Shown: in pieces, positions 1,308 to 52,615 of the stretch | How the letters are laid out: each line of letters opens with the position of its first letter | How positions within the stretch are numbered: position 1 is the stretch's first letter | Virus record (IMG/VR): IMGVR_UViG_3300009183_008372 | Location: 1-55,442 of that record | Reading direction: 5' to 3' (one strand) | Origin: a virus | Length of the DNA: 55,442 nucleotides | Translations under genes and position numbers: made by a program | Notes under the pieces: model-generated | The model's input: the letters and a program-made list of their open reading frames with translations, nothing else | Database searches by the model: none | What the model was told of the DNA's origin: nothing

Positions 1308-1861
1308 TTATCATCCTTGTCCTGTTTGTTGAATTTCAAGTATCTATCGGACCATTCAATTGCCATGTGCAGTCCTCTGGCTAATAATCCAACAAGATGT
1401 GTTGGATTTCCATTTCCTTCAATTGCAATATTGTCTTTAATGTTCTCTTCCATCCAAACCATGGCAAAAGTCAAATTTTTGCGATTTTTTAGCTCTTTGG
1501 CTATTTGTTTGATTGTGACTAAAGATAAATCTGGAACTCCGTATTCGTCATAGGCTACAACTTTATTTTTTTCAACAAACATTTTAATTCGAGATGAAAA
1601 CAACTTTAGTAATCGATCTACATCTTGATGAAAAACAAGTTGATATGCAGGTTTATCTTCATTAATTGGATGAGTTAAATTCATCATTTTGCAGATTTTA
1701 TCATCTGCTATTTCTTCGACCAAAGCCGTTAAAAGTGCGATAGAATGATCTGATTCACAAGAAAAGAAGACCCAAGTTGTAGGTTCCATTTCTTTCTGGA
1801 AGATATCGATACCTTCTAAGGAATTCAAATTATCTATAAAAGATTTGTATTCATAATCCAT
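1304..1861 (-). CDS. Unknown 185-residue protein
   Basis: I do not recognise this protein. It is a soluble, mixed acidic/basic protein with no membrane segment, signal peptide or cysteine cluster. Its start codon at 1861 abuts the stop of the upstream SWIM-type gene (1861..2397), so the two are almost certainly co-transcribed and translationally coupled. The overlapping plus-strand frame in this region is a shadow with no ribosome-binding site. Confidence 0.5.
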   Translation of the reverse strand: MDYEYKSFIDNLNSLEGIDIFQKEMEPTTWVFFSCESDHSIALLTALVEEIADDKICKMMNLTHPINEDKPAYQLVFHQDVDRLLKLFSSRIKMFVEKNKVVAYDEYGVPDLSLVTIKQIAKELKNRKNLTFAMVWMEENIKDNIAIEGNGNPTHLVGLLARGLHMAIEWSDRYLKFNKQDKDDN

Positions 1862-2397
1862 TAGTCCTCCATGATTTTAGAGTCATTTAACGATTTGATC
1901 AATTTGATCAAATGCTTGCACATTCCGGGTGATTCATTCACATTTGCAATTCTTTCGTTGCTTTTTGACTCATACTTACTTCTTTTTCTTCCATAAAGAC
2001 TTTTATCAATTGAGTTGTAGTAATTGAATCTCCAATAAAAATCAGGGCAACTACATCTTAAGACAACCTCATTAACATCTGACTTTATAGTTTCAAGAAT
2101 ATATTTCTTTTCATCACTTGCAATCAACTTAATGGAATTTTTAGATTCCTTAGTTAGATATTTTATTCCTTTAAACAAAGCAACTGTTGTATATTCCTTT
2201 TGATTATCAATATTTTTTGCTAGACCTTTTACGAAGAGTGTCTTCATTCCAAGATAAGGCAAAAAATTCATCTCAATAATTTTTATCATATCGATGGAAT
2301 TTTGTCTTTTCGTAGTTTTAGGAAACGCATCCACAGTACTATTATAAAGATCGATAACAGTGGACTCATTAAGTCTAACAAACTCATTGAACTTCAT
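1861..2397 (-). CDS. SWIM-type zinc-finger protein
   Basis: A 178-residue protein with the SWIM signature C-x-C (Cys115, Cys117) followed about 43 residues later by C-x-H (Cys160, His162), expected to bind one zinc ion and DNA or protein. Similar short SWIM proteins occur in other phages, mostly without a known role. The first eleven residues (MKFNEFVRLNE) resemble the T4 capsid-targeting peptide and end in L-N-E, a fit to the (L/I)-x-E prohead protease site, so it may be packaged in the head. Divergent from 2427..2732 with only 29 bp between the start codons. Confidence 0.6.
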   Translation of the reverse strand: MKFNEFVRLNESTVIDLYNSTVDAFPKTTKRQNSIDMIKIIEMNFLPYLGMKTLFVKGLAKNIDNQKEYTTVALFKGIKYLTKESKNSIKLIASDEKKYILETIKSDVNEVVLRCSCPDFYWRFNYYNSIDKSLYGRKRSKYESKSNERIANVNESPGMCKHLIKLIKSLNDSKIMED

Positions 2398-2426
2398 AAT
2401 ATATTTAAGCCGATAGGATTTTTAAA

Positions 2427-2732
2427 ATGAATAAAAAAGACCAACAAATGGAAACAAATAATCCAATTCCAGAAGGAAAGAGCAAATTTGAAGTAAGAAT
2501 GTATATGGCTGAAAAGGGAAATCTTAAGCAAGGTATTTTTATTGATGGTCAATTACTAGATTGGTCTGTAGATGTACATGACCTTTTGGAAGCTAAAAAA
2601 ATGGGTACACAATATATAAAAGATTTAGAAATTGATGTTATTAGACATTTTCTTCAATCTATTTCGGATTTTATTGGAAGAAAAGTTTCTGTTGAAGAAA
2701 TGAATCAAGCTAAAAAAAATGGATACATTTAA
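2427..2732 (+). CDS. Unknown 101-residue protein
   Basis: Small soluble protein with a mixed charge pattern and no motif I recognise. The central part (GIFIDGQLLDWSVDVHDLLEAKKMG) is split here by reading as a short beta hairpin followed by a helix. It is a stand-alone plus-strand gene between two minus-strand genes. The start codon follows an AGGAT-like site. It could equally start at an in-frame Met eight codons in (MET at residues 8-10). Confidence 0.4.
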   Translation: MNKKDQQMETNNPIPEGKSKFEVRMYMAEKGNLKQGIFIDGQLLDWSVDVHDLLEAKKMGTQYIKDLEIDVIRHFLQSISDFIGRKVSVEEMNQAKKNGYI

Positions 2733-2735
2733 GTG

Positions 2736-2837: not shown

Positions 2838-4175
2838 CTAAGGACTTGGCGGAACCATAGTTTTGATAATTTTAGATAAATCTCGAATGTTATTTAAAAC
2901 TTTTGGATTTTTCATAACCATCTGAAACTCTTTAGTTTTCATAATTTTTTCTTGAATGTCTTTAGGTAATTTTCTGATTGATCCAACCACACTAATGTTC
3001 CCTTTGGTGGTTTTTTCTGGATAATTTTTCAGAAATTCTTCTGCTGTTGGTTCAGCTGCTGGATCTGCTGGTGGCGTTTCTCCCGCTTCTGCTGGTGGTG
3101 CTTCTCCTGCTGGTTTAGCTGCTACTTCTGCTGGTGCTTTAGATGTAGCCACATTTCTTAAATTTGCACTTAAATCTGCAATTTGTTTTGAAAGTTCTTT
3201 ATAATTTGCAGCATCAAGTTTGCCAGAAAAATCAGTTAGATGTTTTATGGCATCTTCAATTGACTTTATATCATATTGATCGTATTTTTCATCTCTACTG
3301 CCTTTATAGCCCTTTGTGAAAGCATCCCAAACACTTCCTTCTCCACCACCCATAAAGCGATCAAAACCTCCAGCCAAACCACCTTTTAATCCAGCCCATG
3401 CTCCGCCAAGCCAATTTGCCTCATCTAGAACATATTCGTTGGTAATCCATTCTGCGAATAATTTAGAATCAAAGCCTCTTTCTTCTATAAGAAAACAAAG
3501 ACTTTTAATCCTAGTTTCCATTAATTTTATTTCTATGGGATTAATTTTTCCATGACGATAAGATTCATAATTAAACTGGTCTGGACTTGATGCTCTATCG
3601 GTGGCAGCACCAGCAGCACGAGCTTTAGAAGCAGCGTCAACAGTTGGTGGTCCGCCAGCCATTGGCTTCATTGGCTTTGCACCAGCTTGTGGTGGTATTG
3701 GTGGTGGTTGAGTGGCGACTGGAGTATTTTTTAAGGTTTTTAATATGCCGTACAATGAATCTTGAATATCTTTTTGAGCAAGTCGAGAATTTTGCCTATT
3801 ACTTTTTTTTATAAGGTCATTTATTTTCTCTACTGCTTGATTGCTTGCTACAACCAAAGGGTCTTGATTAGATCCAGATCCTGCCATCATTTTATTGCCA
3901 GCATTTTGCATAAAATTGCCAACAGCACCTTGAACTTTATTTGCAGCACCTTGCATAAAATTGCCAACATTTTGAAAAAATCCTTGTTCATTAACTTTAA
4001 GTTCGGTAACGATCCATTTTTCGGCTTTATCTGCTATATGATCAGTTTCTGAATGGATATCCAGCCATTCAACAAATGCTTCTGGACTAATACCTCTGAT
4101 GATCATTTCTCGAAAACATTCTAATGCCAATTTTTCAGTTTTTTTAAATTCCAAAGATTCTTTAAAGCTAATCAT
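2838..4175 (-). CDS. Large unknown protein with Ala/Pro linkers, possible head-interior protein
   Basis: A 445-residue protein of two similar halves joined by Ala/Pro/Gly-rich low-complexity linkers (about residues 150-195 and 345-380). Each half contains a short helix pattern with F-(V/A)-E-W (FVEWLDIH near residue 35, FAEWITNEY near 240), suggesting an internal duplication. Gly/Phe/Asn/Gln segments (VGNFMQ repeats, about 70-95) follow the first half. It starts MISFKESLEF, loosely like the capsid-targeting peptides listed in the findings. It overlaps by 4 bp the exported protease gene upstream. Function not recognised; virion structural or internal protein is likely. Confidence 0.5.
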   Translation of the reverse strand: MISFKESLEFKKTEKLALECFREMIIRGISPEAFVEWLDIHSETDHIADKAEKWIVTELKVNEQGFFQNVGNFMQGAANKVQGAVGNFMQNAGNKMMAGSGSNQDPLVVASNQAVEKINDLIKKSNRQNSRLAQKDIQDSLYGILKTLKNTPVATQPPPIPPQAGAKPMKPMAGGPPTVDAASKARAAGAATDRASSPDQFNYESYRHGKINPIEIKLMETRIKSLCFLIEERGFDSKLFAEWITNEYVLDEANWLGGAWAGLKGGLAGGFDRFMGGGEGSVWDAFTKGYKGSRDEKYDQYDIKSIEDAIKHLTDFSGKLDAANYKELSKQIADLSANLRNVATSKAPAEVAAKPAGEAPPAEAGETPPADPAAEPTAEEFLKNYPEKTTKGNISVVGSIRKLPKDIQEKIMKTKEFQMVMKNPKVLNNIRDLSKIIKTMVPPSP

Positions 4176-6565: not shown

Positions 6566-6781
6566 ATGAGTCTTATTTCTTTTAGAGAATGGCTAGATAA
6601 AGAACAAATTGATTTGCCTCTTTTGGGTCAACCAAATAGCAATGCCGATGAAGTATTTGGTTTAACTGGTGTTAAAAGTAAATATGCCATGACGAACACG
6701 AAAAGTGGTCAAACTGATTTTGATCCAGATGAGAAGTTTTTTTGTGGTAAGAAAAAAAATAGAGGAAGGAAAAAAACTTGA
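6566..6781 (+). CDS. Small protein with a capsid-targeting-like N-terminus
   Basis: A 71-residue protein beginning MSLISFREWLDKEQ, matching the pattern Met, short spacer, aromatic/acid/aromatic, then acid that I see at the start of about ten proteins here and that resembles the T4 internal-protein targeting peptide. The remainder is polar and ends with a strongly basic tail (GKKKNRGRKK), which could bind DNA. It starts 3 nt after the previous stop codon. A packaged DNA-binding internal protein is a plausible guess only. Confidence 0.45.
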   Translation: MSLISFREWLDKEQIDLPLLGQPNSNADEVFGLTGVKSKYAMTNTKSGQTDFDPDEKFFCGKKKNRGRKKT

Positions 6782-7068: not shown

Positions 7069-7533
7069 ATGTCCTTGAAAAAATTTACTGAGTGGTGCGA
7101 ATTTAAAGAAATGGATGCAAATCAAATGACTATGGGTGGAGCGACACCAATGGCATCTGCACAAGCTCCTGCTCAACCTGCTGGCAATCAACCTTTGGGA
7201 AATGCATCATCCACTCAATCTAATTCTTCTGAACAAGAATTGTCCAAATTAGCTTCAAATGTTGAAAGTAAATATCAAAACTTTATTGGTGTTTTGCCTA
7301 AAAGCATGCCAAAAGCAATGTGGGTAAACTTATTGCATAATTTCGCATCGGTTGCCAAAGCTCAAGGCAAACTAAATGATGATGAACTTAAGAAAATTGT
7401 TCTAGGACAACACTCTGTGACTCAAAAAATGACTAAGAATCATTCTGAACCACAAGTTGGAGGTGTTGCAGCTAATCAACCACAAGTTGGAAATCAACCA
7501 CAAGTTGGAAATCAACCACAAATGGGTCAATAA
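7069..7533 (+). CDS. Putative head-interior protein with C-terminal repeats
   Basis: A 154-residue protein that starts MSLKKFTEWCEFKE, similar to the 6566..6781 product and to the capsid-targeting-like peptides elsewhere. Residues about 25-65 are Ala/Gln/Pro/Ser-rich and disordered, 66-125 look like a small helical domain, and the C-terminus has three repeats of NQPQ(V/M)G encoded by an 18-bp tandem repeat. GGGGTG precedes the start. Function unknown; the architecture suggests a virion internal protein. Confidence 0.5.
   Translation: MSLKKFTEWCEFKEMDANQMTMGGATPMASAQAPAQPAGNQPLGNASSTQSNSSEQELSKLASNVESKYQNFIGVLPKSMPKAMWVNLLHNFASVAKAQGKLNDDELKKIVLGQHSVTQKMTKNHSEPQVGGVAANQPQVGNQPQVGNQPQMGQ
7474..7527 (+). 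repeat. Three 18-bp tandem repeats in coding sequence
   Basis: Units at 7474-7491, 7492-7509 and 7510-7527; the first two are identical (AATCAACCACAAGTTGGA) and the third differs at a few bases. They encode NQPQVG, NQPQVG and NQPQMG at the C-terminus of the 7069..7533 product. Confidence 0.9.
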
Positions 7534-9968: not shown

Positions 9969-11069
9969 ATGAATAACAATAACGCTACATTTTTCGGATT
10001 CTCCTCTTTCATGCGATTAGATGAAATTGACTGGGAAAATACATTTAGTGATGTTGGCAAGGTATGTCCAGACGCAAAAGAAGTTGTAAAATACTTAAAT
10101 GATGTCAAAGGAAATGCAAATGCTGCCTATGGAGAAAGAAAAAAGTTCCCTATAAAATCACCATTTATACATTCAAAATCTAGTTTTTTTCAAAAAGGCG
10201 AATCAGAAGTAGATGTTGATGAATTTATTCAAAGAATAACAAAGAAGCCAAACAACATCATTAATACAAATGAAAAGATTTTAAAAAGTGGTGGTCCTCA
10301 GGAATTTGTTTATAAAACAGGCATTCCAGCATTCAGAGGCATAGTTTACGATTTAGAAAATAAAAAGTTTTTTTTCGTAAATACTTGCCCCGGAGCAGGA
10401 GATTGTGTGGTTAATTGTTACGCCAGAAAAGGTAATTATATTAGATATCCAAATTCATATGATAGCATGACACGAAGAATCAATTATTTGTTGAATTCTC
10501 CAGATAAATATGAAGAACAACTATATCAAGAATTAAAAGCAAAGTGCGAAGAACACGAAGCTAAACAAGGTTATAAGCCAACAGTAGTTATTCGATGGAA
10601 TGACTCTGGTGATTTCTTTGGTGTTAAGTATGAAAATATTGCCACTGATGTTAAAAACAAGTTAACTAAAGAAGGCTATAAGATAAAAGCATATGCTTAT
10701 ACTAAAGTTGCTGAGACTGCGAAAAAAGGCAAAGTTGGTCTTGTGACTTTTTCACAAGGAGCAAAAAGTTCAGAAACAGAAAAAGCAAAAAATATTAAGA
10801 GAAATTCTTATATCATACCAAAATCAATTTTTTCTAATTTAAATTTGATGAAAATAGAAGATGAAGATAAACTTAAATTAAATGTAATTTCTTATATGAA
10901 AAGTAAATTAAAAATAGATATTCCTTTTATGAATTTACTTAGTTATGATGAATTAAAGCAAATACCAGAAAAAGGAAATCCTAGATGGTATGTTATAGTC
11001 ACATCTGAAGACGGAGATGATGCAGCATTTCGTAAAGATGTAAAAGGCGTTTTACTTTTAGAACATTAG
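9969..11069 (+). CDS. GP88-like cysteine protein
   Basis: A 366-residue protein with the signature of phage GP88-domain proteins: C-P-G-A-x-x-C-x-x-x-C-Y-A-R (Cys140, Cys146, Cys150) and, further on, VIRWNDSGDFF. The cysteine cluster suggests a metal or iron-sulfur site; the family has no proven function that I know. The N-terminus (FFGFSSFMRLDE) loosely resembles the capsid-targeting-like peptides, and L-D-E would fit a prohead protease site. It converges with the epimerase gene and overlaps it by 4 bp. No neighbouring radical-SAM or metallo-enzyme partner is visible. Confidence 0.7.
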   Translation: MNNNNATFFGFSSFMRLDEIDWENTFSDVGKVCPDAKEVVKYLNDVKGNANAAYGERKKFPIKSPFIHSKSSFFQKGESEVDVDEFIQRITKKPNNIINTNEKILKSGGPQEFVYKTGIPAFRGIVYDLENKKFFFVNTCPGAGDCVVNCYARKGNYIRYPNSYDSMTRRINYLLNSPDKYEEQLYQELKAKCEEHEAKQGYKPTVVIRWNDSGDFFGVKYENIATDVKNKLTKEGYKIKAYAYTKVAETAKKGKVGLVTFSQGAKSSETEKAKNIKRNSYIIPKSIFSNLNLMKIEDEDKLKLNVISYMKSKLKIDIPFMNLLSYDELKQIPEKGNPRWYVIVTSEDGDDAAFRKDVKGVLLLEH

Positions 11070-11926
11070 AGATTATGTAAAAACATTTCAATATAATCTG
11101 ACAAATCAAATTTTGGTTTCCAATTTAATTCTTTTTCTGAGAAAGAAGTATCTGCTAATGTTTCGTAAGCCTCTCCAATTCTTGATGGAATATATTCAAT
11201 CTTTGAAGGTTTGAACATATGTGCCACTTCATTTATTGAATAATTTTTACCTCTTCCTAAATTAAAAATTTCTCCATTCCAATTTTTTTCATGCATTTTT
11301 AAAAGTCCCGAACAAATATCTCCGACATAAGTAAAATCTCTTCTTTGTTCGCCATTTCCAGTTATTGTTAAGGGTTTATTTTTTATAATTTGACTTTCAA
11401 ATATGCCAATAACATTTGCGAATTCACCATTTAAAATCTGCCTATTTCCATACACATTAAAGAATCTTGCAATTACGATTGAAAGACCATAAACACGATT
11501 GTACATAATGCAATTTTGTTCTGCGATATATTTGGAGTGGGAATAAGGATTTGCATATATGTCATGCTCAACAGATGAAGATCCAGCAAAAATAACTTTA
11601 CTTTTTCTGAATCTTGCATACTCCAACATATTGACAGTTCCAAGACAATTTACAAATAAAACTTCACTTGGATGTTTAAAACTTGGTGCAATTCTTGGCA
11701 AGGCAGCTAAATGATAAATAACTTGAGGATCATAATTCTTCAAAGCGTTATTTGACTCCCAATTATCTTTAACATTAAAATTTACAAAAGAAGCTCTATA
11801 ATTTATATTTTTTTTAATTCCAGTTGTCAAATTATCAACTACCAAAACATCATTATCTTGTTCGATTAAATAATCTATAAGATTACTTCCAATGAATCCT
11901 GCTCCTCCAGTAACTAAAATTTTCAC
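11066..11926 (-). CDS. NAD-dependent sugar epimerase/dehydratase
   Basis: A 286-residue extended short-chain dehydrogenase of the UDP-glucose 4-epimerase type. It shows the Rossmann motif TGGAGFIG (residues 6-13), the D-N-L acidic/loop region after strand 2 (31-33), YHLAA (71-75), the active-site Ser in AGSSS and the Tyr128-x-x-x-Lys132 pair (YSHSK), and RFFNVYG (about 153). It would interconvert or modify a nucleotide sugar for the glycosyltransferases next door. The exact substrate cannot be told. Divergent from 11991..12413. Confidence 0.85.
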   Translation of the reverse strand: MKILVTGGAGFIGSNLIDYLIEQDNDVLVVDNLTTGIKKNINYRASFVNFNVKDNWESNNALKNYDPQVIYHLAALPRIAPSFKHPSEVLFVNCLGTVNMLEYARFRKSKVIFAGSSSVEHDIYANPYSHSKYIAEQNCIMYNRVYGLSIVIARFFNVYGNRQILNGEFANVIGIFESQIIKNKPLTITGNGEQRRDFTYVGDICSGLLKMHEKNWNGEIFNLGRGKNYSINEVAHMFKPSKIEYIPSRIGEAYETLADTSFSEKELNWKPKFDLSDYIEMFLHNL

Positions 11927-14247: not shown

Positions 14248-15083
14248 ATTATCTCTCCTTTAATCTTTAGAGAAAATCCGTCATTTTCCATTGGGTTTAC
14301 ACCAGCAACAACACTTCTTTTTACCCAAACTGAAAAATATTCAGTTGGCTTAAGATTTCCTATAAGCAAAGGAGATGATGACGATGTTTCGACAAAAGTA
14401 ATATTATTTGGAGCATTAATTTCTGATGCTATTTCAGTGGCTGTTTTTAATTTTGGTCCGCCATCAAAAACTTTTTGTAAGGTGAATGTTGCATTTACAT
14501 CTACGAATGATTGCGACAAACTAACAACTTCTAATGATTCAAAATATCTCTTTGAACTTGTTCCAATAAAATTAACAGAAAAATAAGCAGTAGTTCCAAG
14601 ATAATACCCACTTATTGCAACTTGTTCTAATCCAGAAATAGATCTAATTGAGTTTTGAAAATTACTAGCCCAAATACTAATGTTTAAATCGTGTACGAAT
14701 GAAAATTGAATATTTGCATCTGTAAAGAAATCATAAAACTGTAATGTTATAGTTCCAGATGATACACTGCCAGCATTTGCAATATAGATGTCTTGCCTAT
14801 CATTATTTACTTCAATTCCAATTGTAATTGATGCACCACCAGAAACTTGACTATCCACATAAATTCCAGCATTGAGCAATGTATCTGTACTGTTAATATT
14901 ATTGAAATACACACATCGATAGTCTGTATATCCAGCAGTATTCTGTGCTGCAGAAACATTATCAAATATTCTATTAGATGATAAAACATAATTGGAGATT
15001 GCCCCTCCAATGCTAGAGTCAGGATTGTTATTTGATCCGCCACCAGAATAAAACAATTTTATATCATCATTTTGCAGAGTCAT
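14244..15083 (-). CDS. Beta-rich virion protein
   Basis: A 279-residue protein with the opening pattern found in a widespread group of phage structural proteins: SGGGSNNNPDSSIGGAIS, then NVSAAQNTAGYTDYRCVYF with later IGIEV and a closing YFSVWVKRSV...NDG-F-x-L-x-I-x-G. Little Lys and much Ser/Thr/Asn fit a tail or baseplate appendage protein. It overlaps by 17 bp the HTH gene upstream. Function within the virion is not clear; the family assignment is from memory of similar phage proteins. Confidence 0.6.
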   Translation of the reverse strand: MTLQNDDIKLFYSGGGSNNNPDSSIGGAISNYVLSSNRIFDNVSAAQNTAGYTDYRCVYFNNINSTDTLLNAGIYVDSQVSGGASITIGIEVNNDRQDIYIANAGSVSSGTITLQFYDFFTDANIQFSFVHDLNISIWASNFQNSIRSISGLEQVAISGYYLGTTAYFSVNFIGTSSKRYFESLEVVSLSQSFVDVNATFTLQKVFDGGPKLKTATEIASEINAPNNITFVETSSSSPLLIGNLKPTEYFSVWVKRSVVAGVNPMENDGFSLKIKGEII

Positions 15084-15378
15084 GTTCCCTCAAAGGATTT
15101 TTCAATATGTACCTTACATTCCTTGCTGAATATCCTGTAAAATTTGCGATTTCTTTAATTCCCCATCCCAAACCATGTAAGTGCTGAACCTTTTCTTTGT
15201 GTAAATTCTTTCTATTGGGATTTATTTGACTTACATGAAGTATCCGATAAACCTCTCTTTCTGACAAACCAAACATATTTCCAATTTTAGATACAGAAAG
15301 ATCGGGTCTGCCCAAGTAAATATTTATTACTTGGCTTTCGTTTTGATTGTTTTCAAAAAATTCAATAAAGCCTTGCAT
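15067..15378 (-). CDS. Double helix-turn-helix DNA-binding protein
   Basis: A 103-residue protein with two HTH-like segments: DLSVSKIGNMFGLSEREVYRI in the first half (split by the turn at GLS) and GWGIKEIANFTGYSARNVRY in the second. These resemble homeodomain-like or sigma-70 region-4-type helices, so it probably recognises DNA. The N-terminus (MQGFIEFFENN) also fits the capsid-targeting-like pattern. It is the first gene of a leftward group and lies divergent to 15436..16182 with a 57-bp gap, so autoregulation is possible. Confidence 0.6.
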   Translation of the reverse strand: MQGFIEFFENNQNESQVINIYLGRPDLSVSKIGNMFGLSEREVYRILHVSQINPNRKNLHKEKVQHLHGLGWGIKEIANFTGYSARNVRYILKNPLREHDSAK

Positions 15379-19392: not shown

Positions 19393-20172
19393 TTAGCTAA
19401 TGCCATCAAAGAATTTTTGAGTTGGATTTGCACCAAAAACTCCTTCCATCCAAGAAGATTCATTTTTGATCTTTTTCATTTTCTTTTTTGCAATTGCAAT
19501 TGCAAGTTTTTCTGGCAAGCCTTTTTTGACAAGTTTACTTGTTATAGAAGCTTCTGAATCTTCGCTTGAATCTTCGCTTGATTCAACATCTTTTTTTGGA
19601 ACAATTTTCTTTGATTTCTTTTTGTGTGTAGATTTCTTAGATTCATTATAAGAAGATTCTTTCATACACTTCATGCACTTCATATGCTTCATATTTTTTT
19701 TATGCTTTTTAGATTCTTCAAATTCATCCTCGTCACTTTCATCGTGATCTTCATCACCCTCATCATGATCTTCATCACCTTCATCATGATCTTCATCACC
19801 TTCATCATGATCTTCGTGATCTTCATCACCTTCATCATGATCTTCGTGATCTTCATCACCTTCATCATGATCTTCATGATCTTCGTGATCTTCATCTTCA
19901 TAATCCATGTCTTCTTTTTTCATCTTTTTGGAATATTTTCCACAATATTTACACTTGCTCATCTTTGGATCATCTTTTTCGGATGCTGCTGGGACCGTTT
20001 CTCCATCACCACTTTCATCTTCGATAACTTCTTTTTTTGCTTTAGCTTCACTATGAACTGGATCAAATAGACTAGAAGGACTAACTAATCCCAAATTTTG
20101 GTGATTCGAAAGACCTAAAGTTTGATTAAAAAAACTTTCGTTTAAAGATTTCCAATTTTTATAAGACAACAT
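19393..20172 (-). CDS. Acidic Asp/Glu/His-repeat protein, putative head-interior protein
   Basis: About 259 residues from the ATG at 20172 (GGAG 7 nt upstream; an in-frame TTG at 20184 overlaps that site). It starts MLSYKNWKSLNES, a capsid-targeting-like peptide with an L-N-E cleavage fit. Residues about 90-155 are a nearly pure Asp/Glu/His/Gly repeat (units DEGDEDH and DEGDEDHEDH) flanked by CKYCGKY and a KHMKCMKCMK segment, so metal binding is likely. A basic C-terminal domain (LPEKLAIAIAKKKMKK) follows. Overall strongly acidic, like core/scaffold-associated proteins; function inferred only. Confidence 0.55.
   Translation of the reverse strand: MLSYKNWKSLNESFFNQTLGLSNHQNLGLVSPSSLFDPVHSEAKAKKEVIEDESGDGETVPAASEKDDPKMSKCKYCGKYSKKMKKEDMDYEDEDHEDHEDHDEGDEDHEDHDEGDEDHEDHDEGDEDHDEGDEDHDEGDEDHDESDEDEFEESKKHKKNMKHMKCMKCMKESSYNESKKSTHKKKSKKIVPKKDVESSEDSSEDSEASITSKLVKKGLPEKLAIAIAKKKMKKIKNESSWMEGVFGANPTQKFFDGIS
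19740..19896. repeat. Tandem repeat of 21- and 30-bp units encoding Asp/Glu/His
   Basis: Repeated TCATCATGATCTTCATCACC-type units (21 bp), some lengthened by 9 bp to 30 bp, with few substitutions. On the minus strand they encode DEGDEDH and DEGDEDHEDH. The near identity of units suggests recent expansion and probable length variation between relatives. Confidence 0.9.
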
Positions 20173-24611: not shown

Positions 24612-24863
24612 ATGAAGTCTTTTATTGAATTTTGTCAGGAAACGAAAAAAGAATTGCCCGTTTACGATTTGTCAGAAAAGACAGCTAGGGCTGGAATTAT
24701 GAGTTGGGCTTATCCTGATGGATATGTTAGAAGTCATTATCCCGCTGCTTACTTTATGCCAAAGGCAGCTGATGCTGTTCAGAAAATGGGTAAAAATGCC
24801 AATGATGAAAATAAGGTTGATCATGGACAGTTCAAGTATAAAAATCATGACAATCTTGACTAA
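24612..24863 (+). CDS. Small protein with a capsid-targeting-like N-terminus
   Basis: An 83-residue protein beginning MKSFIEFCQETKKE, one of the best matches here to the T4 internal-protein targeting peptide (MKTYQEFIAE); LSE at residues 20-22 would fit a prohead protease site. The rest is polar with an aromatic stretch (WAYPDGYVRSHYPAAYF). AGAGG precedes the start, CCTAAATA (24546) is a possible upstream late promoter, and a strong terminator follows, so it is a stand-alone transcript. A small internal head protein is my inference. Confidence 0.55.
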   Translation: MKSFIEFCQETKKELPVYDLSEKTARAGIMSWAYPDGYVRSHYPAAYFMPKAADAVQKMGKNANDENKVDHGQFKYKNHDNLD

Positions 24864-31482: not shown

Positions 31483-31755
31483 ATGTCGAATGGAAATTGG
31501 TTTAATTTCATGTCTAACCCGATGGCTCATTACATCAAAAAATCAATGTTTGAACTATTAAAAGAGAGATATGGAAAACACGAACAAATAATTGATAGAA
31601 TTGGAAATTCTCTTACCACCGAAAAAGATATGAAGGATTTTATCTCCATGATGATTGACACCTACGAAGTTGGGTTCGTCAGAGCTATTGATGAACAAAG
31701 AGATAAATTAGAAAAGCTTGGTTTAGGAGTAAGAATTACAGGAAAAGAAAATTAA
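31483..31755 (+). CDS. Unknown 90-residue protein
   Basis: A small, helical, charged protein starting after TTGGAG, 26 nt downstream of the large 29180..31456 gene and probably co-transcribed with it. Its N-terminus, WFNFMSNPMAHYIKKSMFELL, reads as an amphipathic helix. It overlaps by 4 bp with the convergent minus-strand gene. No motif recognised. Confidence 0.45.
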   Translation: MSNGNWFNFMSNPMAHYIKKSMFELLKERYGKHEQIIDRIGNSLTTEKDMKDFISMMIDTYEVGFVRAIDEQRDKLEKLGLGVRITGKEN

Positions 31756-32933: not shown

Positions 32934-34514
32934 ATGATTAATATTTTATTTGGAAAATGGTTCTTAGAGAACGACACATTCACAATTTCTTTATTCAATA
33001 ATTCAATTAACGAAGCAAAAAAATTGGGAGGCGAAGGGTTTTTAGATGAATTATCCTTAGAGTATTATGAAAAAGAAATTAAATATAGAATCAAACAATT
33101 CGCAGATAGGTTGAAAGATAAAGAAAAAATAAAACAAATTGTTCATTCTAGCATATTAGAAGACTTAGCTAAACAAAAAAAAATTACAATTAATGTACTT
33201 ATAGACGATATACATAAGGCTGCAAATAAATATAACAAAGATGAAGATGAAATAAAATATACTTCTTTTCTGCAAAATTTGCACATTCATAAAATGCATC
33301 CAAGTGGATCAGATGCTTTAGCGACTTCTCTTTTTCAAAAAATAAAATCTAAAACCAAACCAAATTACATTTATCGTAGTCTTAAGACAGTGGATAAAAT
33401 TATTGATAATGATAAATCAGAACTTAAAAATCCTCCAGAAAATCCAAAAATTGGAGATAGGCACCTAGCCCAAGGTTACACATGGAAATTCATGAGTGAC
33501 AGAACATGGATAAAAATTAGAAAAGACACAGACGAGTATGAAGGAACAGAATTGTTAAATATGTTTAATAGAAGCAAATTAGATCGTCCTATGTTGAAAG
33601 CAATTTTGCATTATTATGATAATAATAATACCGATGGCGATGGAAAATATTATTTTAATGAAAAAGATGTCATAAAAGACTTTGAAGGTTCATGTAAATA
33701 TATTGGAAGAAATCAATTGAAAAAAGATATTGGAAAAAATGCAATGGTGAAAGCCGATCCATACAAAGGAGATAAAACCAAAATATTTGAAAGAGCAAAA
33801 ATTAAATTCCCTAATCCAGAAATAGATAGTATCTATAAAGATGAAGAAACTAACACTACTTGGAATTGGATTTATTCAAATAAAACAAAAGGCATGGGAT
33901 GGAAAGAAATTCTAAAACAAAAACCAATTTCACATATTAGCTTACACGGTGAAGACGGAGATGACCTTGAAGTAGAAGGAAAAGAAAAAGAAGAAAATCC
34001 ATTAGATCCAGAGAGTGAATATAGTTCTAAAGAATATGATGCTGAAATTAAAAATCGTAATGATTACAAAGTCACAAAACCATTTGGCATTGAAAATCCT
34101 CAAAAAAAACCAACAATAGATCAAAAAAAACCAATAACAGATATTGTTTCTGGTCTAGAATCATTTAAAAGCTATTTAGAAACCACCACAACATTGGCGA
34201 ATGATATACCAAAATCTAAAACCAGATATGGTTATATTAAAAAAGATAATACCGAAAAAGATAATTTTTCTGTGTACGAATTTTACCGTAAAATTTTTAT
34301 TGAACTTACTGATGATTTTATCTCACAAATCAAAGGTGGAAAAAATTCATCTGATGTACAAAAGACTTTTCCAAAGTGGTTTGCAAATAAAGAAATTTTA
34401 TTGCCTAGCAATGCTAAAAAAATAGCACTCTGGTCGAGATTTACAAAAGAAAAATATAACTATGAGCTTGAATCATATGCATATAAAAATAATTTTAAAA
34501 TAAAAGATAAATAA
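32934..34514 (+). CDS. Unknown 526-residue charged protein upstream of the neck gene
   Basis: A large, Lys/Asp/Glu-rich protein, starting MINILFGKWFLENDTF, a loose match to the capsid-targeting-like N-terminal pattern. The middle has TWKFMSDRTWIKIR and later TTWNWIYSNKTKGMGW, two similar Trp-rich strands suggesting an internal duplication. A disordered acidic/Lys stretch lies at about 340-400. It is two bases upstream of the gp14-like neck gene and probably co-transcribed with it. Function not recognised; virion role likely. Confidence 0.5.
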   Translation: MINILFGKWFLENDTFTISLFNNSINEAKKLGGEGFLDELSLEYYEKEIKYRIKQFADRLKDKEKIKQIVHSSILEDLAKQKKITINVLIDDIHKAANKYNKDEDEIKYTSFLQNLHIHKMHPSGSDALATSLFQKIKSKTKPNYIYRSLKTVDKIIDNDKSELKNPPENPKIGDRHLAQGYTWKFMSDRTWIKIRKDTDEYEGTELLNMFNRSKLDRPMLKAILHYYDNNNTDGDGKYYFNEKDVIKDFEGSCKYIGRNQLKKDIGKNAMVKADPYKGDKTKIFERAKIKFPNPEIDSIYKDEETNTTWNWIYSNKTKGMGWKEILKQKPISHISLHGEDGDDLEVEGKEKEENPLDPESEYSSKEYDAEIKNRNDYKVTKPFGIENPQKKPTIDQKKPITDIVSGLESFKSYLETTTTLANDIPKSKTRYGYIKKDNTEKDNFSVYEFYRKIFIELTDDFISQIKGGKNSSDVQKTFPKWFANKEILLPSNAKKIALWSRFTKEKYNYELESYAYKNNFKIKDK

Positions 34515-35067: not shown

Positions 35068-35523
35068 ATGGGTGTATTTTTTGAATTCTTAGAAAAAATT
35101 CGTATTGAAAAAATGTTATTAGAACAAGATGCGCCACAAGGTGGCAATCCTCAAGATCAAGGAAATATGACAGCACCAGACGCTCCTCCAGAACAACAAG
35201 ATTCAAGTTCTGGTCAAGGCGAAGATAGTGGTCTATCTCCAACTGCTCATGACGATAATTTTTCAAAATTAATTGATATTATGAAACAAGCTTTGCCAGA
35301 TTTGAAACCAGAAAATAGAAAAATTATTGATGCATTTTTAAAAACAAATAATTTATCTGGCGGAGATGAACCTAAAAAAGATTCCCAAGACCAAGGTCAG
35401 GGTCAGGGGCAAGACCAAGGTCAGGGGCAAGGGCAAGGACAAGGACAAGCACCGCCAACAGGAATGGGCGATCAATCAGGAATGCCAGCACAACCTAATC
35501 AGATGGCTGCTCCACAAATGTAG
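35068..35523 (+). CDS. Disordered Gln/Gly-rich protein with capsid-targeting-like start
   Basis: A 151-residue protein starting MGVFFEFLEKIRIEKMLLEQ; L-L-E at residues 17-19 fits a prohead protease site. The rest is mostly disordered: Pro/Gln/Ser-rich (20-60), a short helical domain (FSKLIDIMKQALPDLKPENR, about 69-88) and a Q-G/D-Q-G tandem repeat (about 108-127). GGAGATTTC precedes the start. Candidate for a packaged head-interior protein. A terminator follows. Confidence 0.5.
   Translation: MGVFFEFLEKIRIEKMLLEQDAPQGGNPQDQGNMTAPDAPPEQQDSSSGQGEDSGLSPTAHDDNFSKLIDIMKQALPDLKPENRKIIDAFLKTNNLSGGDEPKKDSQDQGQGQGQDQGQGQGQGQGQAPPTGMGDQSGMPAQPNQMAAPQM
35388..35450 (+). repeat. Short Gln-Gly tandem repeat in coding sequence
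   Basis: Repeats of CAAGGT/CAGGGG/CAAGGA-type hexamers encoding QGQG and QDQG in the 35068..35523 product. Likely prone to length change. Confidence 0.8.
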
Positions 35524-37742: not shown

Positions 37743-40100
37743 ATGGCGATACTTAGAGGTTTTCCACCATCAAACACAATCAGTCCAAGTGTTCGCATTG
37801 CCGAAAAGGACTTGAGTTTTGTCGCACCAGAGCAATCTTTGCACAGGGCGGCTTTAATTGGATTTGCAAGCAAAGGTCCAATTAATATTCCTACTATCAT
37901 TGCAAGCCAAAGACAGCTTCGTAGAACCTTTGGTAATCCTCATCCAGAAAATGGAGATCCATATCTCATCTACGCTGCAGAAAGTTATTTGCTTATTGCA
38001 AATGAATTGTATGTTGTTCGTGTTGCAGATACCGATCCAGTTAGCGATGAGTCTGCGACTATGGCAGAAGTAGAAGTTCCTTCTGCTGGTACAATTATTG
38101 AAGTTGTTACTGATGTCGATGCACCATATTGCTCTAGCGATATCCCATTGTTTTTCCGCTGGAGGCTTAATGGCGTTCTAAGTGAAAAGACTTTGATTGT
38201 TGATCCTGAAAACACAGGATATGATACAGATGAACTTGTAAACTTATTGAATGGTCAACTTGATTTTCAAAATGATGGAATTCAATTCTTCAAGGGACCA
38301 TCACCCGATGATAGACTTGGCGTAAGAACTCTTTGGGCTTATGGTCCTTCTGCAGAACTTGAATTTGTTGCTGTAAAAGACTCCATTTGTGGTTCCGAAG
38401 GCTCTACTGGTTTTGGATCAGACATGGAAGTTGCTGTAATATTAGGCACTGCAACTCATTACCCTGATGTTACTTACACAACAGCAGGATTTTATAATTT
38501 TGATGATTTGACTGGTATTACTCTTAATATCGTTGTTGATGGAACAGACAGTGTTCTTATTGATAATGTAGTTCAAGTTATTGATCTTTCTACTTTTGAC
38601 GGCATGGGCGATGTAGGCATTGATGACATCGTTGACGAAATCAATAGTCAAGTAGAATCCGGAAGTCTTCCCGGTGGCTGGATAGCTTCTGTATCTGGAT
38701 CATCTTTGAAGTTTGAAACACTTCATAGTGGTCGTGATGCTAGATTGCGTATTAAACCAGATAGCACTGGAGAACTTATATTCGGATTGCCGACATCAAC
38801 TGCAATCGGTAGAAGTGATCCAACCGTTGTTGGCGATATGTCAGATTGGACATATGGCAGAATAGCTGGTGCCTCTAATACTACTGGCGATATTTCTTTC
38901 ATGGTTACTGCAGATTCAGTTGGTATTGAAGGAAACTTCACTCAAGTTGTTGTCAAAAACAACACTCGTGATAGTAATTGGATTCTAGAAGTTTACAACA
39001 ATGGAAATCAAGTAGAATCTTGGGGTCAACTCACAAAAGATTCCGCAAGCACATTCTATATTGGAAGCTACTTATCTTTAGTATCTGATTATGTTCGTGC
39101 GACAGATAATACAGATGTTCTTGCCGGACCTGCAGATGGTACATATACATTGTCTGGTGGTTCTGATGGTATTCCTTCAGATCCAGACATGCAAGATTCT
39201 TTATTGATCGGTAGTTCGGTTGGATACAGTGGTATTTATGCTGTATCTGAATCTGAACAATATGACATCGATTTAATTGCAGTTCCCGGACATAGTAGCA
39301 CAACTGTAGTAACAGAATTGCTTTACATGTGTCAAAATTTCCGTATGGATTGCATGGCAATTATTGATGCTCCATTCGGCTTGACTGTAAATGAAATCAT
39401 TGCATGGCAAAATGGAACTCATCCTTTAAACACCACTAGATTCGATAGTGACTTTGGTGCGCTTTACTGGCCATGGGTTCGTATTCGTGACAACTTCAAC
39501 AGAGTAGACATTTGGGCGCCACCTAGCGGATCTATCATGGCAGTTTATGCACAGAGTGATCGCTTGGCTCGTCCTTGGTTTGCTCCCGCAGGTATCACCC
39601 GTGGTGTTGTTCCCGGTATTAATGATGTTTATTCTCGCCCTTCACAAGAAGAAAGAGACTTGATGTATGGCTATAGGAACTGCATTAATCCTATCGTACA
39701 GTTTGTAGATACTGAAGGTTTCGTGGTTTGGGGTCAGAAAACTATGCAGAGAAGACCTACTGCTCTTGATCGTGTAAATGTAAGACGCTTAATGTTTTAT
39801 ATTGAAAAACAAATCAAGATGAAATCACGAATTCTATTGTTTGAACCACATGATGCACAATTTAGAGCAGAGTTCGTAAGAATTGCAACTTTAGTTCTTC
39901 AAGAAGTTCAGACTGACCGAGGTATTACAGCCTTTAAAATTAAGGCTGATGCCGAACTCAATACTTCCGATGTGATCGATAGGAATGAGTTTAGAGCAAG
40001 AATTGGTGTACAGCCAACAAGAGCAGTTGAATTCATGTTCCTTGAGTTCAGTATTCATCGAACCGGCAGTGACTTTACCGAAAGCACAGATGCATTCTAA
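37743..40100 (+). CDS. Contractile tail sheath protein (gp18-like)
   Basis: A 785-residue tail sheath protein, longer than T4 gp18 (659 aa). The N-terminus (SVRIAEKDLSFVAP, then AALIGFASKGPIN, LRRTFGNP) and the C-terminal domain (PAGITRGVVPGINDVYSRPSQ, NPIVQFVDTEGFVVWGQKT, VNVRRLMFYIEKQIK) are diagnostic of sheath proteins. The long middle insertion (about residues 250-480) is Ser/Thr/Gly-rich and probably forms surface domains. GGGAG precedes the start. Followed by two tail-tube genes; polymerises around the tube and contracts on infection. Confidence 0.92.
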   Translation: MAILRGFPPSNTISPSVRIAEKDLSFVAPEQSLHRAALIGFASKGPINIPTIIASQRQLRRTFGNPHPENGDPYLIYAAESYLLIANELYVVRVADTDPVSDESATMAEVEVPSAGTIIEVVTDVDAPYCSSDIPLFFRWRLNGVLSEKTLIVDPENTGYDTDELVNLLNGQLDFQNDGIQFFKGPSPDDRLGVRTLWAYGPSAELEFVAVKDSICGSEGSTGFGSDMEVAVILGTATHYPDVTYTTAGFYNFDDLTGITLNIVVDGTDSVLIDNVVQVIDLSTFDGMGDVGIDDIVDEINSQVESGSLPGGWIASVSGSSLKFETLHSGRDARLRIKPDSTGELIFGLPTSTAIGRSDPTVVGDMSDWTYGRIAGASNTTGDISFMVTADSVGIEGNFTQVVVKNNTRDSNWILEVYNNGNQVESWGQLTKDSASTFYIGSYLSLVSDYVRATDNTDVLAGPADGTYTLSGGSDGIPSDPDMQDSLLIGSSVGYSGIYAVSESEQYDIDLIAVPGHSSTTVVTELLYMCQNFRMDCMAIIDAPFGLTVNEIIAWQNGTHPLNTTRFDSDFGALYWPWVRIRDNFNRVDIWAPPSGSIMAVYAQSDRLARPWFAPAGITRGVVPGINDVYSRPSQEERDLMYGYRNCINPIVQFVDTEGFVVWGQKTMQRRPTALDRVNVRRLMFYIEKQIKMKSRILLFEPHDAQFRAEFVRIATLVLQEVQTDRGITAFKIKADAELNTSDVIDRNEFRARIGVQPTRAVEFMFLEFSIHRTGSDFTESTDAF

Positions 40101-48575: not shown

Positions 48576-48576
48576 T

Positions 48577-50377: not shown

Positions 50378-50934
50378 TATCCTCCAAGATTTATAAAGAA
50401 TTCATTTTCAATCTTCAAAAGATCATTAAGCAAAATTCCAGTCCACTCTCTATATTTAAGCATGTACTTGAATTCTCTTCCTTTTAATTCTTCCGTCTTC
50501 AAAAAAACAAGCCAAGATTTTCTTGTTCTTTTCCAACAAAGCATAGGTTTTCTTTCACATCTAACAGAATCCGCAACAACCTGATCCAAGAAATGATCTA
50601 ATTCTGTTGATCCATGTTCAAAAATTCCATTCAAATCAATGCCGTCATAACCACCCTTTGATTCTAAGCAAAATATAAAATTAGCAGGAACAATTAGATC
50701 GCCAGAAAAAACATCTCTAGCATGTTTAGGAAGATGACTGACTTGACCCCATCTATTTCCAGATCCAACCGATCTGGAAAAATCTTGACAATTAAATCTG
50801 GTGTTTAATATTTTAGTTAGTTCTCTTTCGACTCTTCCACCTTTTTGTTTGCCATTTACTTTTTTTTTCTTTTTTTCTTTATTTTTCAATATGTCATCAA
50901 CAACAAAATCCTCATCATCATAATTATTTTCCAT
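50377..50934 (-). CDS. PD-(D/E)XK nuclease, Holliday-junction resolvase-like
   Basis: A 185-residue protein with a Lys/Glu-rich N-terminus and then KGGRVERELTKILN (Glu36/Glu38), DVFSGDLIVP (Asp79) and FCLESKGGY (Glu91-x-Lys93), the D...ExK pattern of PD-(D/E)XK nucleases such as Hjc-like resolvases; SRSVGSGNRW fits the substrate loop. It could resolve recombination intermediates or branched phage DNA before packaging. Upstream GATase gene ends 7 bp before its start; downstream STAS gene is coupled. Confidence 0.65.
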   Translation of the reverse strand: MENNYDDEDFVVDDILKNKEKKKKKVNGKQKGGRVERELTKILNTRFNCQDFSRSVGSGNRWGQVSHLPKHARDVFSGDLIVPANFIFCLESKGGYDGIDLNGIFEHGSTELDHFLDQVVADSVRCERKPMLCWKRTRKSWLVFLKTEELKGREFKYMLKYREWTGILLNDLLKIENEFFINLGG

Positions 50935-50941
50935 GTAACCT

Positions 50942-52081
50942 CTAGTCGAAAATATTTTCTATATCTAAAAATGATTTTTTCTGTTCATCTAACAAAGATA
51001 AAATTTGTTCCACATCACTAACAGAAATAGAATTGTTCCTAAGTAATACTTGGGAATTTGCATAAATGTTTCTGCATGTCTCTTGTATCTTCTCGATTTT
51101 TTTTTCCATTTCATCAAGGAGCTTATCGGCATCGTCATCAGTTGCAGGAACATAAACATAATCTTCCCCTGTAGATAATGGAGTTATTATATTTACTTCT
51201 ATGTCATCTTTTGCAAGAGATAATGCATTTCCGCTATAAGACCATTCTTTACATTCAGATGAAGTTACATAATATTTGTTAGGATATGTAATATTTTGTT
51301 TTTCAGAATCTAATGAAAAATGCCAAATCTCATGATCTATAACTTCAATTATTTTTGAATTGATTATTGATTTATCACCCAAAGCATTGGCTGCACTCTT
51401 CCAAATTAAAGGGTCTGAAAAGAAAAATATTTGACCAAGATTATTTCTCGCATCAGCAATCCATAATGGTCTATGTTCATTTCTAAATAACCATAAATTT
51501 CTACCATTATTATTTTTCCACTCTCCAATAGCAACTGCCATATGACCTTGAGTTACATAAGAAAATATGTCTTTAATTCCAGCCATTCTTTCTCGTTCTG
51601 GTAAGATTCCGACATATTCATTTAAGAAATTTTCAGAATATTGGTGTTTAGCTTGTTCGAATATTCTCAAAAGAATTTCAGAATCACATTGAGAATGAAC
51701 ATTATATTTCTTTTTCAAAGAATCATATTCATCAATTCTGCCGTTGTGAATTAATGCTATATTGCTTTTTTCGCTTAAAAATGGATGATTATTTTTATTT
51801 ACCAGCGGATTTCCAGATCCACGACTAGCTCCACGGGCATGAACTAAAGCTAAATTCACTTCGACATTTTTGTTAGATTTCCAAATATCAGAATTTATAA
51901 ATTCGCTAGATCTTCCCGGTTGTTTATGAGTATAAACACTTCCATCATCTCCACTTTCTGCCAACCAATATCCAGAAGCGTCTATGCCACGAGAATCTAG
52001 CCTTTCGAATAATTCAGATAAAAGTTCAAATGATAATGTGTTGTTTTTAGATTTCCCTATAAAACCAGCTATTCCGCACAT
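50942..52081 (-). CDS. Class II glutamine amidotransferase
   Basis: A 379-residue protein starting MCGIAGFIG, so Cys2 is the Ntn-type glutaminase nucleophile after Met removal. It has LDSRGIDASG, LVHARGASRG (Arg-loop for glutamine) and ALIHNGRIDEYDSLKKKY, matching GlmS/AsnB/PurF-type GATase domains. No synthetase or isomerase domain follows; residues about 280-379 are helical. The released ammonia presumably feeds a partner; candidates are the amidoligase at 16192..17112 or an unseen enzyme. Start after TAGGAG. Confidence 0.8.
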   Translation of the reverse strand: MCGIAGFIGKSKNNTLSFELLSELFERLDSRGIDASGYWLAESGDDGSVYTHKQPGRSSEFINSDIWKSNKNVEVNLALVHARGASRGSGNPLVNKNNHPFLSEKSNIALIHNGRIDEYDSLKKKYNVHSQCDSEILLRIFEQAKHQYSENFLNEYVGILPERERMAGIKDIFSYVTQGHMAVAIGEWKNNNGRNLWLFRNEHRPLWIADARNNLGQIFFFSDPLIWKSAANALGDKSIINSKIIEVIDHEIWHFSLDSEKQNITYPNKYYVTSSECKEWSYSGNALSLAKDDIEVNIITPLSTGEDYVYVPATDDDADKLLDEMEKKIEKIQETCRNIYANSQVLLRNNSISVSDVEQILSLLDEQKKSFLDIENIFD

Positions 52082-52090
52082 GGAATTCTC

Positions 52091-52615
52091 CTATATGTTT
52101 TTCAAATCCCCTGTGCTTCCTCCCAATGTAGGAACTTCTTGCTGTGGTGGTCCGCCGGGGCTTGTTGGTTGAATGACACTTTGATCAGATGGAGGAACAA
52201 CCGCTTTTGCGGATTTTTTAATTTTATCGGAAGTTCCCTTATCATCTTTTGTTTTTTGTATATCTGCTGATGCAATATCATTGATTGGTGAACCCAATTT
52301 ATTGACAATATTTTTTATTGCCATATTTGATTTTGATAACGCATCTTCGAGCGAAATGTCATTTGTTCCATCTATAGACTTCAATAGCATCACACCAATA
52401 TTTGAAAGCTTCTCTAAATGTTCTTTGTGTTCTTTAACATCCATGCTTCTTATAATTTTGCGAATTTGACCAACAATATTTTGAGTTGCAACAATGGTGG
52501 CTTTGCCCTTTTTTTGAGCTATATCACCTAGATTTTGCAAAGCATTGTAAATATCGCCAATCCTATTTGCTAAATCTCTTGTATCTTCATTTATAAGGAA
52601 CTGTTTAAAATTCAT
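52091..52615 (-). CDS. Putative head-interior protein
   Basis: A 174-residue protein beginning MNFKQFLINEDT, the closest match here to the T4 capsid-targeting sequence: Met, Lys/Asn, aromatic, Gln/Glu, Phe, then I-N-E fits the (L/I)-x-E prohead protease site. The middle is helical, and the C-terminus (about 130-174) is Pro/Gly/Gln-rich and disordered. Its start overlaps by 4 bp the stop of CTP synthase. No other motif; packaging with DNA is inferred from the N-terminus. Confidence 0.5.
   Translation of the reverse strand: MNFKQFLINEDTRDLANRIGDIYNALQNLGDIAQKKGKATIVATQNIVGQIRKIIRSMDVKEHKEHLEKLSNIGVMLLKSIDGTNDISLEDALSKSNMAIKNIVNKLGSPINDIASADIQKTKDDKGTSDKIKKSAKAVVPPSDQSVIQPTSPGGPPQQEVPTLGGSTGDLKNI

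Follow-up and report, generated by a model that had tools for sequence, protein, structure and literature searches.

Unrelated proteins in a clade of uncultivated huge phages share a predicted T4-type capsid-targeting N-terminus

The IMG/VR virus record IMGVR_UViG_3300009183_008372, a stretch of 55,442 bases that is probably a fragment and is called the window throughout, encodes a tail sheath, a sheath stabilizer and two tail tubes, and thus comes from a contractile-tailed phage related to T4. A preliminary description had proposed that about ten unrelated products of this DNA, with two more loosely attached, begin with a T4-like capsid-targeting sequence (CTS). All ten coordinate ranges translate as described, and one N-terminal motif, hereafter the tag, made up of Met, a spacer, aromatic-x-x-aromatic and then acidic residues, is common to nine to eleven of the twelve; 2838 is a moderate case and, of the loose pair, 32934 is supported by its score and its orthologue at locus L009, whereas 9969 is not supported. 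Proteins are named by the first coordinate of their genes, lengths are in amino acids (aa) or nucleotides (nt), and scores are those of the profile described below.

1861..2397, minus strand: putative CTS protein, 178 aa; profile score 10.3; predicted junction LNE before S; TAAATA ends 4 nt before ATG
2838..4175, minus strand: possible CTS protein, 445 aa, moderate; score 5.3; the orthologue in relative G019, MINYRDF, scores 8.2
6566..6781, plus strand: putative CTS protein, 71 aa; score 14.4, the highest in the window; TAAATA 4 nt before ATG
7069..7533, plus strand: putative CTS protein, 154 aa, with a low-complexity body; score 14.0
15067..15378, minus strand: putative CTS protein, 103 aa, with two regions like helix-turn-helix (HTH; weak matches); score 4.7; TATATA 4 nt before ATG
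19393..20172, minus strand: putative CTS protein, 259 aa, with Asp/Glu/His-rich repeats; score 9.5; predicted junction LNE before S
24612..24863, plus strand: putative CTS protein, 83 aa; score 12.6; predicted junction LSE before KT
29180..31456, plus strand: putative CTS protein, 758 aa, supported by orthologues; score 6.4; predicted junction FNE before MA
31483..31755, plus strand: weak extra candidate, 90 aa (MSNGNWFNFMSNP), outside the earlier list; score 3.9
32934..34514, plus strand: putative CTS protein, 526 aa; score 6.5 (8.5 for the copy in relative G014); predicted junction FLE before N
35068..35523, plus strand: putative CTS protein, 151 aa, Q/P-rich, directly upstream of tail genes; score 6.9; predicted junction LLE before Q
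52091..52615, minus strand: putative CTS protein, 174 aa, four helices predicted; score 12.0; predicted junction INE before D; TAAATA 4 nt before ATG
9969..11069, plus strand: GP88-like protein (PF17338, E 5.6e-20), CTS status unsupported; score -2.0
37743..40100, plus strand: tail sheath (phrog_23, E 6e-78), which serves as the clade marker

The pattern M-x(1,4)-[FYW]-x2-[FWY] is matched by 16 of 79 N-termini in the window, where internal positions predict 3.0, and the enrichment over shuffled N-termini that had been suggested as a check is present: shuffling of residues 2-13, repeated 5000 times, gave a mean of 4.7 matches and a maximum of 14, and none of the 5000 shuffles reached 16. A scan of the distance between the aromatic residues gave 16 against 3.0 expected at spacing 3 and 8 against 3.1 at spacing 2, the next highest, with smaller surpluses at spacings 5 and 6 (7 and 6 against about 3). 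The pattern was chosen after viewing the listed examples and T4, and the pattern test alone is not independent. Open reading frames (ORFs) were taken from a simple gene caller, so that all counts are approximate; the caller began 7069..7533 at 7150, the correct start being 7069, and this gene is missed by start-dependent window counts. Eight of the ten firmly listed proteins are among the 16 matches (2838 fails the pattern and 7069 is missed through its start), and the remaining eight include 32934, 31483 and signal-peptide-like or membrane-like proteins (4172, 44724). The listed products were said to be unrelated to each other, and BLASTP indeed found no mutual similarity at E<=0.01 among 13 window candidates, the listed twelve and 31483. 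A score test of listed proteins against the rest (Mann-Whitney p 5e-7) is circular, the list having been picked by eye, and was set aside.

Megablast of the first 50 kb of the window against a phage collection gave no match. Relatives of its sheath occupy 31 distinct loci in IMG/VR, of which L031 is only 28% identical, and they include G014, a 76-kb collinear relative; the window and G014 are near-copies. The gp23 of G014, 77.8% identical, led to LR756511 (LR756511.1), an uncultured phage of 595,163 bases without annotation, whose head cluster is 54% (portal), 62% (gp21), 52% (gp22) and 78% (gp23) identical to that of G014. The phage in the window falls within a clade of the T4 superfamily whose members are uncultivated and large to huge, the longest records reaching 533 and 595 kb.

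In LR756511 the pattern matches 90 of 1131 ORFs, where internal positions predict 51 and 2000 shuffles gave 47 with a maximum of 72. All 90 went into a 7-column profile, whose training set contained nothing from T4 or the window. This LR756511-only profile gives gp61.1 (hypothetical), IPI, IPII and IPIII the four highest scores among the 277 ORFs of T4 (12.1-13.4) and places 6566, 7069, 24612, 52091, 1861 and 19393 at the top of the 79 window ORFs (9.5-14.4); six window proteins score >=8, against 0.39 expected. The profile was used because the regular expression is unconvincing in T4, where its 20 matches in 277 (14.2 in shuffles) were reached by 100 of 2000 shuffles. A 12-column profile made from ten window tags was rejected, as it found 20 LR756511 proteins at >=8 (1.6 expected) but none in T4. 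Tryptophan is favoured as second aromatic residue in the clade, unlike in T4.

The clade tags between a dozen and about forty unrelated proteins, and 'about ten' is an undercount for a whole genome. At a score of >=9, LR756511 has 41 of 1131 ORFs by leave-one-out scoring (2.7 expected; at >=7, 50 against 9.2), with three similar pairs at E<=1e-3 among the 41. At the same threshold the 532,729-base relative G029 has 16 of 861 (1.7 expected), G027 10 of 325 (0.6), G014 9 of 111 (0.3), G017 5 of 115 (0.2) and G019 4 of 102 (0.2), while the 350-kb G041 shows little (3 of 608, 0.9 expected). Outside these records the counts are 5 of 277 in T4, 3 of 288 in cyanophage NC_047714 (0.6 expected), 5 of 644 in XacN1 (0.9 expected; two of the five are repeat copies) and none of 228 in the first 200 kb of phiKZ (0.5 expected). 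Tag genes of LR756511 are denser between 400 and 595 kb, where the head cluster lies (25 of 290, and 15 of 730 elsewhere), with a boundary picked post hoc. Its tag proteins have a median length of 138 aa (ORFs of >=60 aa), the clade including members as large as 758-1076 aa, and are slightly more basic than other proteins (0.022 against -0.002 per residue, p 8e-4); charge was dropped as a criterion, window members spanning -0.13 to +0.08.

Most orthologues of the window proteins carry the tag as well. That of 6566 in G027 begins MSLSGFKEWLSK; M-x-G-F-x-x-F is kept in four distinct orthologues of 15067 (MKGFTQFLE, MDGFKEFFAE, MYGFREFLT and MYGFKQFIT), the tag of 24612 in five orthologues with the G014 near-copy included, and MxxFFEF(L/M/F)EKIR in those of 35068, whose start is also resembled by a G019 protein (MKSFFEFMEQIR) that diverges afterwards. 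Orthologues of 19393 start MIPYRKWKFLNES and MLSYKQWKTLNES, and LR756511 has MISYKQWKILSEN, alike by eye; the length of this acidic, His-rich protein varies in near-identical relatives (259 aa at 19393-20172 in the window, 277 aa at L036:16404-17237). The L009 orthologue of 32934, MNNLSFAKWFLEN, retains KWFLEND. For 7069, phmmer found only the G014 near-copy, and the N-terminus of G019 L047:12325-12654, MSLKKFSEWAKIME, resembles it by eye only. The counterpart of 31483 in G027, MASWMDYMSNP, scores 7.4, but the pattern is missing in some orthologues and no xxE site was seen.

Could such N-termini be an accident of aromatic-rich starts in an AT-rich genome? The pattern also takes in signal-peptide-like proteins, T4 lies weakly above its shuffles by regular expression, and 0.6% of phiKZ and cyanophage N-termini pooled reach score 9, somewhat above internal positions. 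Single weak members could be chance, but for the set this explanation is ruled out by the shuffles, the internal positions and the spacing scan with its peak at 3, and it has to face the link between tag and a DNA motif that several genomes show (below) and the conservation of tags between orthologues down to 19-29% identity; it is left with a negligible share of the probability.

The head genes of the relatives are of T4 type. The G014 gene order is the end of the portal gene (gp20), a 612-aa tagged protein, gp21, a gp22-like gene and gp23, followed by the order of the window, and tag-like proteins are present within this cluster. A gp21-like protease had been suggested as something to search for elsewhere in the genome; it was found, as PF03420 (gp21/S77 prohead protease), in the collinear G014 (E 1.2e-28) and in LR756511 (E 6.7e-28) and not in the window. 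Because it is present in these two, gp21/S77 and T4-type head genes are very likely to occur in the phage of the window too. PF03420 also matches in 22 of 30 further records that encode relatives of tag or head proteins, in 21 of them above the cut-off. Diverged S77-protease-like extra matches lie beside the head-type copy at LR756511 242621-242989 and G041:59960-63027.

Prohead proteases of this kind cut after [L/I]xE, as in the T4 reference sites FLTE followed by AEIGG in gp23 and IAE in IPII and IPIII. In 57 tags (45 from LR756511 and 12 from the window and G014), [L/I]xE follows the tag in 19, where shuffles give 9.9 (p 0.0013), and the wider [LIVMF]xE does so in 27, where they give 17.8 (p 0.0057); the neighbouring patterns [LI]xD, xQ, xK, xS, xN, [LI]xxE and [LI]E show no enrichment in the same 57. 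The earlier expectation of (L/I)-x-E at the end of the tag finds support in this larger set and in 52091 and, with F or L at P3, in 29180, though not in all families. In 12 aligned sequences of 52091 P1 is E and P3 is L or I in every one, P2 varying between N, I, M and T, and [F/L]xE-MA is found in all four aligned sequences of 29180, although the LR756511 member is about 17 residues longer between tag and junction. By eye, LLE, LFE, INE, FYE and INE precede Q in orthologues of 35068, and LNE is seen in 19393 and its counterparts in L046 and G027.

A T4-late-type DNA motif accompanies the tag. Most of 25 tagged orthologues of 1861 and 52091 have TAAATA (or TACATA) a few nt before ATG, and a Fisher test of tag (score >=9) against TA[AC]ATA at 3-6 nt before ATG gave, as results that are not independent replicates since G014 nearly duplicates the window and the remaining genomes are related, 12 of 49 tag genes against 14 of 1082 other ORFs in LR756511 (p 6.7e-11), 7 of 16 against 6 of 845 in G029 (p 2.7e-10), 5 of 10 against 3 of 315 in G027 (p 4.6e-7), 4 of 9 against 3 of 102 in G014 (p 6.6e-4), 2 of 9 against 1 of 208 in G017 and G019 together (p 0.0045) and 3 of 5 against 3 of 74 in the window (p 0.0024), where 7069 falls outside the five owing to its called start. 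The adjacent motif is thus found at a quarter to half of the tag genes in the relatives. No association was seen in T4 (0 of 5) or G041 (0 of 3), where there is little power and the motif lies farther upstream, and none of 13 XacN1 starts with TA[AC]ATA at 3-6 nt is a tag gene. A Shine-Dalgarno match is missing more often from tag genes (25 of 49 against 292 of 1082 in LR756511). The fixed distance is what distinguishes them: TATAAATA with one mismatch anywhere within 60 nt is found at 4 of 11 tag genes and 12 of 68 others and was rejected as undistinctive, and in place of the T4 arrangement, with a TATAAATA core 20-30 nt before the start codon and a leader, the TAAATA core peaks 4-5 nt from ATG. 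The T4 late core lies about six nucleotides before the transcription start, and the mRNA would therefore begin at or next to the ATG, which suggests that tag genes are perhaps expressed late and without a leader. For the jumbo phage CBB a T4-late-like motif is reported in 35 places, and in its relative GAP32 it is predicted before structural genes (PMC5259590; this and the other papers are cited for the passages drawn on here).

A shared docking motif need not lead into the head, and the tag might merely resemble that of T4 while serving another assembly or location, such as the tail or neck, a membrane or a phage-made compartment. The genes 35068, 32934 and 29180 adjoin tail genes, upstream of the sheath gene, and most protein bodies have no head-like similarity, as this would lead one to expect. 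Yet the profile singles out the internal head proteins of T4, [L/I]xE follows the tag more often than chance allows, tag-like proteins sit in the G014 head cluster, and a tag protein of LR756511 weakly resembles a 'minor head protein' (phrog_1242, E 1.2e-4). phiKZ forms a compartment and is, in its first 200 kb, without the motif. Taken together these points make a destination outside the head improbable.

What the tagged proteins are was approached by domain searches. In a Pfam scan of 30 LR756511 candidates, 28 of them at a leave-one-out score of >=9 and all at >=6.6, nine have a match at E<=0.001 and seven exceed the curated cut-off, the domains being a C39-type cysteine protease, a poly(A)-polymerase head, a HAD_SAK (RNA-repair) phosphatase, a phosphoribosyltransferase, DUF5661, Toprim and SpoVR; the SpoVR-like and Toprim (primase-like) proteins are probably false tag calls. 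PHROGs gave matches at E<=0.001 for three of 30 candidates (21 from LR756511, nine from G029 and G027), the phrog_1242 protein among them. The G029 protein L195 is a DUF3293 protein (E 2.5e-17) with a sub-threshold match to an S-adenosylmethionine (SAM) lyase (27.3 against 28 bits); its sequence match in PDB to WD40 designs is a repeat artefact. Of 70 phage records with a match, the one Flavobacterium phage examined has it inside a 'structural protein' gene of about 11 kb, and the relative in Campylobacter phage CP220 starts MKFKDYIKSL and later has FNE-SS. Among the cargo labels given to window proteins, the acidic and His-rich repeats of 19393 stand, whereas the HTH matches of 15067 and the SWIM-type zinc-finger similarity of 1861, the latter below the Pfam cut-off, are weak. 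The predicted structure of 1861 has a mean predicted local distance difference test (pLDDT) value of 49 over residues 1-10, followed by a mostly well-predicted domain, and a fold search of PDB with the 1861 model returned nothing below E 0.001; the model of 52091 has a mean pLDDT of 70.5.

These results bear on a rival that shares the destination, namely that the tag brings scaffold helpers into the prohead, where like T4 gp67 and gp68 they are largely degraded or structural, with no surviving or injected cargo. It would suit the low-complexity 35068 and 7069, the small size of many tag proteins, and the 612-aa protein, which lies between portal and gp21 as gp67/68 do. It fits less well with the enzyme domains on several LR756511 tag proteins, with the G029 DUF3293 protein and its sub-threshold SAM-lyase similarity, and with a body of 1861 that is predicted with confidence (52091 less so), and we regard it as unlikely, though as the most serious competitor.

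The reading that we prefer, with a probability of roughly 0.85, is that the shared N-termini are T4-type capsid-targeting sequences, a judgement made from sequence. In favour of the T4-like character first proposed are the top rank of the T4 internal proteins, the T4-type head of a collinear relative, the conservation in most orthologues and the link to the late motif. The CTS of T4 is found on IPI, IPII and IPIII (and Alt) according to Mullaney and Black 1996, as cited in PMC9958956 and PMC5694885; it brings internal proteins into the core, foreign CTS fusions are packaged, gp21 cuts off small N-terminal peptides, and injected IPI blocks a restriction enzyme (PMC9958956, PMC5694885, PMC3012670). 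All internal head proteins are stated to use the CTS (PMC5694885), the T-even internal set is described as diverse defence proteins of which only the CTS is conserved (PMC3012670), and the T4 gp23 propeptide is reported to have 65 residues (PMC9958956). The T4 path of core entry, gp21 cut and injection is the simplest reading here. The tag proteins would be made late and would enter the gp22-type scaffold core of the prohead by docking there through their first 8-25 residues; gp21 (S77) would cut them after [L/I/F]-x-E, and the mature proteins would remain in the head with the DNA, some of them probably being ejected into the host. On this analysis packaging is likely, cleavage is probable for most tag proteins, and injection into the host is plausible.

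Several results weigh against this interpretation. Four of the ten listed proteins reach scores of just 4.7-6.9 and are outranked by two likely false positives (13726 at 7.7 and 44724 at 7.0), and in LR756511 the adjacent TA[AC]ATA is found at only 12 of 49 tag genes. The window, a fragment, has no PF03420 match, and of 23 records with sheath relatives, most of them short fragments, one (G014) exceeds the cut-off. In the window and G014 alone [L/I]xE is not significantly enriched (5 of 12 against 3.1, p 0.16); [LV]xE-KT of 24612 is found in four of five distinct sequences, G027 deviating, and 15067 has an FxE junction, with F at P3, in three of five. The 612-aa head-cluster protein failed as a model of a conserved cut site, its junction being kept in 6 of 11 distinct N-termini, and known domains or relatives are missing for most of the cargo.

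The family of 1861 adds to these difficulties. It has 69 matched loci; the junction E is present in 38 of 43 aligned rows and P3 is L, I or F in 31 of 33 ungapped rows, but the aromatic pair is present in 22 of the 43 and absent from 21. The family is not counted as proof of cleavage because of these 21 tagless rows and because its short forms retain the junction E and LxE stands at the matching position also in tagless homologues from the cultured XacN1 and CM1; the conservation of the junction may be structural, and the family may show a single protein acquiring or losing the tag. At L077, L083, L085, L090, L099, L100 and L102-L105 a short or quite different N-terminus replaces the tag. The tagless XacN1 homologue (L275) lies directly before a gene for a single-stranded-DNA-binding protein, hinting at a DNA-related role.

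A short aromatic-x-x-aromatic tag on unrelated proteins, with gp20, gp21 and gp23 of T4 type in the relatives, is what the clade has in common with the T4 internal proteins; the differences lie in number, about 40 tag proteins in LR756511 against a handful in T4, and in TA[AC]ATA at 3-6 nt from ATG at a quarter to half of tag genes, where T4 has it mostly 20-30 nt upstream. With ejection proteins of the SPN3US/phiKZ type the clade would share a large phage with many packaged proteins, whose propeptides are cut by the prohead protease (PMC5694885, PMC10052503), packaging here being predicted from sequence; unlike in the clade, several of those propeptides exceed 100 residues and end in sites such as ALE, SQE, STE and TFE (PMC5694885), and phiKZ has neither a tag excess in 1-200 kb nor a PF03420 match. 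The cultured Campylobacter phage CP220 has an S77 protease and 9 of 201 N-termini at >=7 (2.0 expected), e.g. MKFIDYLKNKALNEMA, MTFKDYLNNITINEA and the protein starting MKFKDYIKSL mentioned above; its set is smaller than that of the clade (2 of 201 at >=9, 0.5 expected) and its TA[AC]ATA lies mostly 15-30 nt upstream of ATG. Two CP220 genes in tandem (L279:15925-16599 and 16610-17275) have the same first 23 residues, MKFSDFLEEQAIAKSGDYDFGNL, and soon diverge. A literature search, with subscription papers mostly outside it, brought up papers on T4, SPN3US, P1, P22, applied T4 work and other subjects and, by title, no report of such a tag set in uncultivated huge phages; a search of PMC7162821 for five terms gave no passage either. 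The principle is known, and what appears new is its scale, its occurrence in this clade and the motif next to the start codon.

Elsewhere in the window, two tail-tube paralogues adjoin (40123-40704 and 40782-41294, both phrog_4542). A family of proteins starting MGA(S/T)S..G.G.GS is represented at 254-817 and 951-1307, at L035:13375-16336 and by four in a row in G014. By eye, 11066-11926, 18461-19360, 26921-27670, 50942-52081 and 52612-54252 resemble sugar epimerase, nucleotidyltransferase, glutamine amidotransferase/asparagine-synthase-like and CTP-synthase-like genes. The untagged product of 25974-26486 opens, also by eye, like a C39 cysteine protease (YSCGP), while a C39 protein of LR756511 is tagged; gain or loss of the tag on a C39-type protein is possible on this likeness.

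Going further, the clade may have turned the T4 tag into a general, secretion-like address carried by some 3-4% of called genes, which for LR756511 means about forty. Many of these genes would belong to one late regulon with leaderless mRNAs, and the products, among them a protease, enzymes of RNA repair and nucleotide modification and possibly an anti-restriction protein that degrades SAM, would be packed in the head and enter the host together with the DNA, ready to take over the cell and counter its defences. This extension is a tentative one, and we would sooner doubt it than rely on it. The convergence of tag, site and, often, late-type motif offers a route from sequence to a list of likely virion-packaged genes of otherwise obscure function in huge phages, and the predicted internal protein load is far more varied than that of T4. 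Since T4 IPI is a known injected anti-restriction protein, the tag list is a list of candidate anti-defence and host-takeover proteins, and the tags themselves could be used to direct cargo into the heads of laboratory T4.

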